Source of the DNA: Bacteroidota bacterium
GTDB taxonomy: Bacteria > Bacteroidota > Rhodothermia > Rhodothermales > UBA10348
Reading direction: 5' to 3'
NCBI GenBank assembly: GCA_029262835.1
Contig: JAJCYQ010000046.1
Span: 1 to 64,000, forward strand
Length of the DNA stretch: 64,000 nt
Positions within the stretch are counted from its first letter, which is position 1, and every line of letters begins with the position of its first letter. The notes under the pieces were generated by a model. That model was not told the DNA's origin, made no database searches, and was given only the letters and a program-made list of their open reading frames with translations. This document shows positions 142 to 2,490 of this stretch, piece by piece. The translations under genes were made by a program, and so were the position numbers.

Positions 142-286
142 CGAGGGATAGACCCTTAGACAGGCCGTGCATAACCCGCAGCTGCCCGACGGGAAGGTAA
201 AAAGAAATCCGGATTTGGATTTGGGCACGGCAGGATGTAAAGTGTACGTGAACTTCAAAACAGAGGCCTGAAATGGTGTACGCCCG

Positions 287-320
287 CTCTCTCTCTCTCT
301 CTCTCTCTCTCTCTCTCTCT
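287..320 (+). repeat. (CT)17 microsatellite inside a signal-peptide coding region
   Basis: Seventeen perfect CT dinucleotides run without interruption. They lie between an ATG at 273 (preceded by AGAGG at 262-266) and the protease reading frame that begins at about 322. The repeat unit is not a multiple of three, so gain or loss of one unit shifts the frame. As sequenced, the frame from 273 stops at 372-374. One extra unit, or two fewer, would join it to the protease frame and encode an Arg-(Ser-Leu)n hydrophobic stretch. This is the architecture of a slipped-strand phase switch. Confidence 0.85.
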
Positions 321-321
321 T

Positions 322-2490
322 GTGATTCTTGGGTTTCTGCCAACCCAGACGCATGCCCAGCAAACCGTCGGTGATGCGTTTTCCATCGCTGTTGACCCAT
401 CGAGCGACAAAGTCCGTACGGCGGTCGATCCCGTATCTGGGAGCCAAATAGTTACTCGAATTGAACGGCCTGGAATGAAGTTCAAAGCGACTACTGCACC
501 AGATCTGTCGTCGCAACTCGTGGATGCGAACCTCGAGATATTTGGACTGGCTCCCGCGGACGAACTGGAGTTGTACACTACGCGGGTCGTCGGGACCGTC
601 GTGTACTCCTATTTCCGAAAAAACATTGATGACATCCCCGTTTTTGGGGCCGATCTGATCGTGAAGACGACGCGGCCCTTACGCATAGATCAACAAATTT
701 ACGAAGATCAGTGGGGCGATCCTGTCCCGGAAAATCAGATCATGTTCCAGTCGTCCGACAAGGTTCGACCTACCGAGCAGCGAAGTGACTGGGAAGTGGT
801 CAGTGTGACCAATCATGCCTACCTCGTCAAGGCGCCCGAACAGACAACGCCTGTTATCAGCAGCTCGTCGGCCGCAGCCGGGCTGGGACCATCCGCCGCC
901 CGGGTAGAAACAGGTAATCCCGGCATAGTTTATTACGTTGGCCGGGCGGACGTTCGCGCGCCCGAGCTGGCCTATTTGTTCAGCAGCCACGACGGTTCGG
1001 AGCGGGTACTGGTAAGCGCAATTTCTGGTAACGTACTCTATGATGACGTTCGTCGTGGCAGCGCTGGCATTGCGTCGCACGGAATCGTTGACCGTGAAAA
1101 ATTCTCTTTTCGAAGTGAACCATCCCAGGCTTCTGCATCTACAGGGTGCTCACAGATAGCATCAGACATCAGGATCTATCCGTCAAACCCCGATAACGGC
1201 CCGCTCGAGCTCCGCTATGCGAATGTCTGTTTTGACACGAATCCAATCCTGAAGGGACATTTTGCGGATGTGGATGTCGTTGGGAGAACGCGTCTTTCTG
1301 GCGACTTTACTGGTATTCTGCCCGGTGACCCAGGCTGGTCTGAAATATCCACATTTTGGCACATGTCCCAGGCATCGTGGTTTTTCCACGAGCAGGGCTT
1401 CATCGATGACGTGTCAACGTTTGATTCGGATATAGACTTGATTGAGGGGCAAATCAATTCGAATGTTGACGGTAATATGGGGAGTTTCAACGGGTTGGTC
1501 TCTCCCGCTGTGATCAGTTTATCCGAGAGTATGGGCACCGGTAGTCCCTATTTTCCCGGCTACAACGAGGCTGCCATAGTGGCACACGAAGTTGGCCATG
1601 CGATGCATTTCAAATTTACCAGTGTTCCGACATGTGCTGATCGGACAGCTGAAAAATGCGCCATCAGCGAAGCTATTGCCGACTATTTGGGAATTAAATA
1701 CCGAAATTTCAGCGAGGGGCAGATTAGTGCCCCATGGCTGGATCCAATTATGGGTGTCTACGCTGTGGAGACGCCATCAGACCCGAATGTAGCGACGTTA
1801 CCGCGTGACTTGACTCACACGGGCCCCCATTATTCGTTGTTTGGTGTCGATACGGCAATCTGGTCCGGGAATGCAAGTGAACAGACCGTTTATGATGCAT
1901 CCATGATTTTATCAACGGCGTTGATGGACTTTGATGAAATAGATGGATGGAATACGTCCCATAACTACGTGATTGCGGCATTTAGAGGGCTTCCTGGTCC
2001 ACCATCGTTTCTGGACGTCCGTGATGAGTTGATCGATGCGACAGGGGTATCTGTTGTCGCCTACAACCCGATCTATACGACAGCGTCGCCCACATATGTG
2101 TCCTGCACAGCGAGCTGTAGCTCTGCTGCCAACCTGTCTATGCGCGGGAGGGGGATTTTCGACGACAGCAATCCGAATTTCAAACAAGGGACGGGTAGCC
2201 CAGTTCGAGAAAGTGCGGGAAACATCGAGTTGACTCGTCCCCAGCGCGTGTTTCCCAATCCCGCCTCAGATCAGGTGATTGTCCGCATGAATGCTTTGGG
2301 AAATAAAGACCAGGAGGTTTCGTTTCGTGTTTTCGACATCATGGGCCAAGACGTAACCCGGCTTGTACGCTGGAGTTCTGGGAGCGGCGGTTATATTCTG
2401 GATACGAGCGACTTGGCATCGGGTACGTATATCATTGTGACGCAGGCAGGTGGTTCTGGCGGTTCGTCACTCGTCCAGATTCTTCGATAG
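322..2490 (+). CDS. Secreted zinc metallopeptidase (HEXXH...E) with T9SS sorting domain; probably phase-variable, out of frame as sequenced
   Basis: The product has a gluzincin-type active site. HEVGH lies at about residues 422-426 counted from 322, with a probable third ligand Glu in SEAIADYLG at about 450. A long N-terminal propeptide-like region precedes it. The C-terminus has a type IX secretion sorting domain starting near FPNPASD (about residue 643) and ending SSLVQILR, so the protein is probably exported by T9SS. The first codons encode VILGFLPTQTHA followed by QQ, which looks like the end of a signal peptide cut after HA. The real start is therefore upstream, most plausibly ATG 273, but the (CT)17 tract puts that ATG in a different frame. 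A GTG start at 322 has only CT-rich sequence before it and would give a broken signal peptide. Fungalysin-like (M36) is the closest fit, but the subfamily is uncertain. Base composition is lower in GC than the window average. Confidence 0.8.
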   Translation: MILGFLPTQTHAQQTVGDAFSIAVDPSSDKVRTAVDPVSGSQIVTRIERPGMKFKATTAPDLSSQLVDANLEIFGLAPADELELYTTRVVGTVVYSYFRKNIDDIPVFGADLIVKTTRPLRIDQQIYEDQWGDPVPENQIMFQSSDKVRPTEQRSDWEVVSVTNHAYLVKAPEQTTPVISSSSAAAGLGPSAARVETGNPGIVYYVGRADVRAPELAYLFSSHDGSERVLVSAISGNVLYDDVRRGSAGIASHGIVDREKFSFRSEPSQASASTGCSQIASDIRIYPSNPDNGPLELRYANVCFDTNPILKGHFADVDVVGRTRLSGDFTGILPGDPGWSEISTFWHMSQASWFFHEQGFIDDVSTFDSDIDLIEGQINSNVDGNMGSFNGLVSPAVISLSESMGTGSPYFPGYNEAAIVAHEVGHAMHFKFTSVPTCADRTAEKCAISEAIADYLGIKYRNFSEGQISAPWLDPIMGVYAVETPSDPNVATLPRDLTHTGPHYSLFGVDTAIWSGNASEQTVYDASMILSTALMDFDEIDGWNTSHNYVIAAFRGLPGPPSFLDVRDELIDATGVSVVAYNPIYTTASPTYVSCTASCSSAANLSMRGRGIFDDSNPNFKQGTGSPVRESAGNIELTRPQRVFPNPASDQVIVRMNALGNKDQEVSFRVFDIMGQDVTRLVRWSSGSGGYILDTSDLASGTYIIVTQAGGSGGSSLVQILR

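Follow-up and report, generated by a model that had tools for sequence, protein, structure and literature searches.

A tract of 17 CT units in the start of a metalloprotease gene, lying between a start codon and the intact frame of the protease, is in our reading a slipped-strand contingency (phase-variation) locus that is OFF as sequenced; we put the probability of this reading at roughly 0.83. The tract was found in the window, the whole 64,000-nucleotide stretch of Bacteroidota DNA that was analysed. The window begins with the first base of contig C46 (genome G000), so that only 286 bases are visible 5′ of the tract. The reading draws on the anatomy of the locus and its frame arithmetic, on between-species unit counts in indel-free flanks at a sister locus (contig C32 of the same genome), and on purifying selection on the C32 gene. 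The features of the window locus are as follows.

262..266, + strand: possible ribosome-binding site AGAGG of the upstream start, read directly, 6 bases before ATG 273
273..275, + strand: ATG start of the switchable frame, with the n-region MVYAR, from direct reading and frame reconstruction
273..374, + strand: OFF product as sequenced, the 33-residue peptide MVYAR(SL)nSCDSWVSANPDACPANRR, from the list of open reading frames and frame reconstruction
287..320, + strand: (CT)17 switch tract (100% matches), encoding the Ser-Leu part of the predicted signal-peptide core
322..357, + strand: rest of the predicted signal peptide, VILGFLPTQTHA, in the protease frame, with cleavage expected before Gln 358-360
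322..2490, + strand: intact T9SS-type metalloprotease frame of 722 codons (Por_Secre_tail, E 7.9e-9; TIGR04183 above cut-off)
1585..1599, + strand: zinc-binding motif HEVGH (HExxH), invariant in an alignment with three family homologues
2248..2454, + strand: T9SS C-terminal type A sorting domain (Pfam and NCBIfam matches), the tail expected of T9SS cargo
2501..3547, + strand: lipoprotein (LLVGC), possible operon member, starting 10 bases after the protease stop
3553..4599, + strand: paralogous lipoprotein (LVAGC), 50% identical to the preceding one and separated from it by 5 bases

The (CT)17 tract is followed directly by T 321 and then, in the protease frame, by GTG ATT CTT GGG. The protease frame runs from GTG 322 to 2490 with no stop inside, and between TAA 238-240 and 322 it contains no ATG, GTG or TTG. 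With 17 CT units the frame of ATG 273 ends at the stop 372-374, which is the OFF state. When the sequence was rebuilt with 9 to 24 units, the two frames joined only if the unit number was a multiple of three (15, 18, 21), and 15, 18 or 21 units gave MVYAR-(SL)n-VILGFLPTQTHA^QQ, a whole predicted signal peptide joined to the protease. With 16 or 19 units a stop appeared right behind the repeat (after ...SLL), and 17 units gave the 33-mer. The preliminary description had reported ATG 273, the AGAGG, the (CT)17 tract, the 33-residue OFF frame and its restoration by the gain of one unit or the loss of two, and all of this was confirmed from the bases and by frame reconstruction. The window gene thus carries a simple repeat, with a unit that is not a multiple of 3, between a start codon and an intact open reading frame, as does an SSR contingency locus. 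The (CT)17 tract is the sole dinucleotide run of at least 5 units within the window, and a 34-base CT run was obtained in 0 of 100 dinucleotide-preserving shuffles of the window.

Members of the Bacteroidota are often independent of AGAGG-type sites. A promoter scan found no sigma-70-type promoter before the protease gene. A CTG at 268, in the protease frame at 17 units (KWCTPALSLSL...), was considered as a start and judged unlikely, CTG being a rare start and leaving no spacing to AGAGG. The contig opens with a C-terminal fragment of an ISL3-family transposase (2-109, + strand), which lies immediately 5′ of the switch gene.

The predicted ON signal peptides were judged by hydropathy (best mean of 8 residues), cleavage motif and Q-rule. 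By the Bacteroidetes Q-rule, Gln follows the signal-peptide cleavage site (PMC5837995). Core hydropathy of the ON forms was 2.8-3.5, compared with a median of 3.0 in 38 other T9SS-tail proteins of the genome, and Gln stood right after the signal-peptidase motif in all ON forms and, by a crude scan, in 26 of those 38 proteins. On these criteria, the putative Sec signal peptide of the window protease is present only in the ON frame.

We propose that the CT tract would gain or lose units by slippage during replication. At a unit count that is a multiple of three, a ribosome starting at ATG 273 would read through the Ser-Leu repeat into VILGFLPTQTHA, and the repeat would supply part of the hydrophobic core in a Sec signal peptide; the ON pre-protein would then undergo export and cleavage before Gln and enter the type IX secretion system (T9SS). 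At other counts translation would end within about 33 codons and no exported protease would be made. The C32 metalloprotease would carry an equivalent switch, with 8 units, in the OFF position. We infer that slippage in living populations is frequent enough to be useful, that the ON peptide functions as a signal peptide and that the cell is affected by the ON/OFF state. The two lipoproteins behind the window protease perhaps share the switch.

Against Peptidase_M36 (fungalysin, PF02128) the window protease scored 14.2 bits (E 0.026), below the cut-off of 23.3, and its family homologues were likewise under the PF02128 cut-off. These homologues, from other genera of the family, are 23-25% identical over the full length and share the HExxH motif. 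As the preliminary description had anticipated for homologues that lack the repeat, they have a longer N-terminus: they begin with ordinary longer signal peptides and no repeat. A start at GTG 322 would therefore cut the signal peptide off, and the frame from GTG 322 is without the n-region and most of the core found in the relatives. Like the T9SS metallopeptidases of NCBIfam NF038113 (M36), the window protease combines HExxH with a type A sorting domain and, in its ON form, a predicted signal peptide whose cleavage site is followed by Gln; it differs in falling far under the NF038113 cut-off, in falling under the Pfam M36 cut-off, and in its apparently switchable signal peptide. A scan of genome contigs with the window protease found no relative, and a search of solved structures returned no match. 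Searches of Pfam and NCBIfam gave no match for the lipoprotein at 2501..3547.

In the whole genome (3.45 Mb, 103 contigs, 97.6% complete) CT tracts reach 7 or more units at just two places, each at the signal-peptide start of a T9SS-tail metalloprotease gene. About 59 genes of the genome have a T9SS tail; the chance of finding both tracts in the 60 bases at the start of such genes is ∼3e-7, rising to ∼3e-5 for an assumed 600 secreted-protein genes; both are rough values for a target chosen afterwards. The second tract is the following.

Contig C32:19702-19717 (L036 5600-5900), − strand: (CT)8, OFF, at the start of an M12/reprolysin-type T9SS metalloprotease gene

The context of this tract is ATGACCAGGTT(CT)8GCATGCTGATTTTGATGGGTACAACGTCACCCGTCAGCGGACAG. 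The gene is intact over 590 codons (domains Reprolysin_5 and Por_Secre_tail), and 7 or 10 units would give MTRFSLSLCMLILMGTTSPVSG^Q; with the present 8 units it is OFF. A lipoprotein-like gene lies directly behind the C32 protease gene.

Three congeneric genomes contain no homologue of the window protease except for the sorting domain; for this reason selection was measured on the C32 gene. An orthologue of the C32 gene was present in two of the three congeneric genomes, in synteny (downstream of what by eye looks like an acetylornithine-type aminotransferase gene) and with a CT tract in each; the third congener is without the C32 gene. The tract has 8 units in G000 (OFF), 7 in G002 (ON, an open gene of 609 codons) and 15 in G001 (OFF; 13 or 16 units would be needed for ON). 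Each species was sampled by one genome, all of them drafts and probably MAGs (one is labelled MAG), and the counts may contain consensus error. Over 2.1 kb from the −35 box on, G000 and G002 differ by 187 substitutions, and the single internal indel is one CT unit. At the sister locus, then, the repeat number differs among relatives with conserved flanks and toggles the frame. Comparison of repeat counts across relatives, as proposed in the preliminary description, was made on the C32 orthologues, the window gene having no close orthologue. The central claim of that description, that the signal peptide of a T9SS metalloprotease carries an ON/OFF frame switch which is OFF as sequenced, gains support from the second locus in the genome, from the one-unit difference between orthologues in otherwise indel-free DNA and from purifying selection.

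The layout before the CT tract is kept in the three C32-type orthologues, each of which has the ATG ahead of the tract and ATGACCAGG, ATGACTAGG or ATGATCAGG directly upstream of it. A promoter scan, made on G002 only, placed a promoter-like TTGACA-17-TAGTAT before the gene; the TTGACA was seen by eye in all three orthologues and makes the ATG before the tract the first start.

The signal peptide of the G001 copy, (SL)n-VILAFVAISSESKA, is closer to the window's (SL)n-VILGFLPTQTHA than are the signal peptides of its own orthologues, a hint that the 5′ ends were exchanged or share an origin. A (CT)6 in G002 (C34:19082) was inspected and lies outside any signal peptide. A small lipoprotein with a collagen-like GPAGPAGADGQDG stretch is encoded directly behind the C32 protease in both species (L036 3450-4040 and L037 2800-3261, both − strand), which parallels the lipoproteins behind the window protease.

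It is unlikely that the tract is a neutral microsatellite, expanded by chance in a broken gene whose OFF state is permanent. Consistent with such a pseudogene, three of the genus's four tracts with 7 or more CT units are OFF, and the window protease is absent from the congeners and adjoins an insertion-sequence remnant at the contig end. The G001 copy of the C32-type gene (L051, contig C80) also has further inactivating changes, an in-frame nonsense codon and a frameshift further in, besides (CT)15, and appears to be decaying. The selection data argue the other way. Between G000 and G002 the C32 gene has a dN/dS of 0.039/0.247 = 0.156 (586 codons), which indicates that it is under purifying selection and has stayed functional despite its OFF state in the sequenced G000 clone; a contingency locus predicts this outcome and a pseudogene does not. 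The open reading frame is thus kept by selection while OFF in the C32 gene, and the window gene is known only as intact, with all 722 codons preserved downstream of its tract. One C32 orthologue (G002) is ON, and all four genus tracts lie in signal peptides.

A true count fixed at an in-frame 15 or 18, misread in sequencing or assembly, is very unlikely. The assembly is a draft, and the tract is a dinucleotide repeat 286 bases from a contig end, as this explanation would have it; against it, independent assemblies are out of frame (8 units in G000, 15 in G001) while the 7 units of G002 are in frame, the 34-base tract is shorter than usual reads, and even with an error a tract of the switchable kind would remain. 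Least probable is that translation starts behind the tract, which would then be an expression-tuning leader: GTG 322 is a legal start and an ATG stands just behind the tract in the G000 C32 gene, but the protein from GTG 322 begins MILGFLPTQTHA, which lacks a basic n-region and has too short a core to be a signal peptide. The sequence upstream of GTG 322 is pyrimidine repeat only and hence offers no ribosome site. The ATG behind the C32 tract is ATT in G002 and GTA in G001, whereas the three orthologues all have the ATG ahead of it.

CT tracts of at least 8 units, closed by a base other than C, were surveyed in 394 genomes of the phylum and were present in 32 of them; 60 distinct tracts were read, a set to which a search of 114 genomes across the order also contributed. 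A tract was classed as lying at a gene start when an ATG stood no more than 60 bases upstream of it and an open reading frame of at least 150 codons followed. A signal-peptide-like core accompanied 13 of the 16 sense-CT tracts at gene starts and 1 of the 10 in the GA orientation (Fisher p 0.0008, with paralogues and orthologues included, so that cases are not independent). When collapsed by eye, the sense-CT cases come to about eight separate ones, G397, G085, G121, G382 and G105 among them. Of the 13 signal-peptide-like cases 3 were in frame, which agrees with the one third expected if tract length is free with respect to frame (p 0.56) and is unexpected for stable coding repeats. In several other survey genomes the repeat lies before, not within, the core, and these are supporting examples rather than proofs.

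In G397, a member of the same class, three lipoprotein paralogues (L079, L097, L098) have 9, 9 and 10 CT units inside the lipoprotein signal peptide MKTKTFSLSLSLLVAVLLSLITIKAC; none is in frame and one is truncated. In G085, three paralogues that start MNSLSLSL... (L069, L094, L095) have 13, 11 and 18 units, the 11-unit copy alone being in frame, and they are a candidate phase-variable surface protein family. In G439 (L119) an in-frame (CT)7 stands at the beginning of a gene whose product, by eye, resembles the T9SS component PorV (AQSGTAASEFLNIPVGARATAMGG). Long CT tracts of G318 (L100, L101, L123), G389 (L099) and G463 (L124), from one genus of the same order, have 17 to 44 units and lie outside signal peptides; no signal-peptide-like start was found at these tracts.

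A wider proposal, to which we give slightly less than an even chance, is the following: that CT-repeat signal peptides are a general, repeatedly evolved means of phase variation of secreted and surface proteins in the Bacteroidota. In this genus they would control a switchable secretome of small size: the two T9SS metalloproteases (perhaps with the lipoproteins behind them) would flip independently, to give up to four secretion phenotypes per clone.

Switches of this type are known already. In H. pylori oipA (hopH), CT repeats in the signal-peptide-encoding part are changed by slipped-strand mispairing, and ON needs the FWLHA end in frame (PMC10564699); hopZ, sabA and babA have CT repeats at the 5′ end and are likewise phase-variable (PMC3960876). 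Neisseria opa genes have CTCTT repeats in the leader-peptide region (PMC3960869, PMC3899988, PMC4534519). The preliminary description had called a signal-peptide core built from a microsatellite unusual, and these precedents do not bear that out. The H. pylori Hop genes and the window gene have in common the CT unit, its place in the 5′ coding region, a slipped-strand frame switch and an ON state in which the end of the signal peptide is in frame. They differ in cargo and host: outer-membrane adhesins of a mismatch-repair-poor epsilonproteobacterium in one case, T9SS-secreted metalloproteases of a GC-rich (62%) Bacteroidota, with a genome otherwise almost free of CT tracts, in the other. The window locus shares the mechanism of the Hop-type CT switch and falls outside the Hop gene family, Pfam and NCBIfam returning T9SS-tail and metalloprotease traits only. 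No sequence relation of the window locus to the H. pylori Hop system was found, and the CT switches of Helicobacter and Bacteroidota are presumably convergent. In opa, as at the window locus, the frame is switched by a pyrimidine repeat that also codes for part of the signal peptide; opa differs in its pentamer CTCTT (the unit here is CT, so the locus is not of the opa type), in its beta-barrel adhesin products and in phylum.

In the titles and abstracts on phase variation and type IX secretion, a partial coverage of that literature, no repeat switch of T9SS cargo was evident, and an equally partial search on dinucleotide-repeat phase variation in Bacteroidetes gave nothing relevant. On this coverage, what is new is the phylum and the cargo, T9SS proteases; the evidence from comparison of species at the sister locus is also unusually clear.

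Most known examples of slipped-strand control over secreted proteins come from host-adapted pathogens, Helicobacter and Neisseria among them. If our reading is true, a CT signal-peptide switch on T9SS cargo, seen at one locus in three species of uncultured Bacteroidota, extends this form of control to another phylum and to secreted proteases. Automated annotation from GTG 322, or a call of a broken gene, would misread such loci in MAGs. For the switched proteases, the idea that a clone splits into cells that make a shared enzyme and cells that do not is open to testing.
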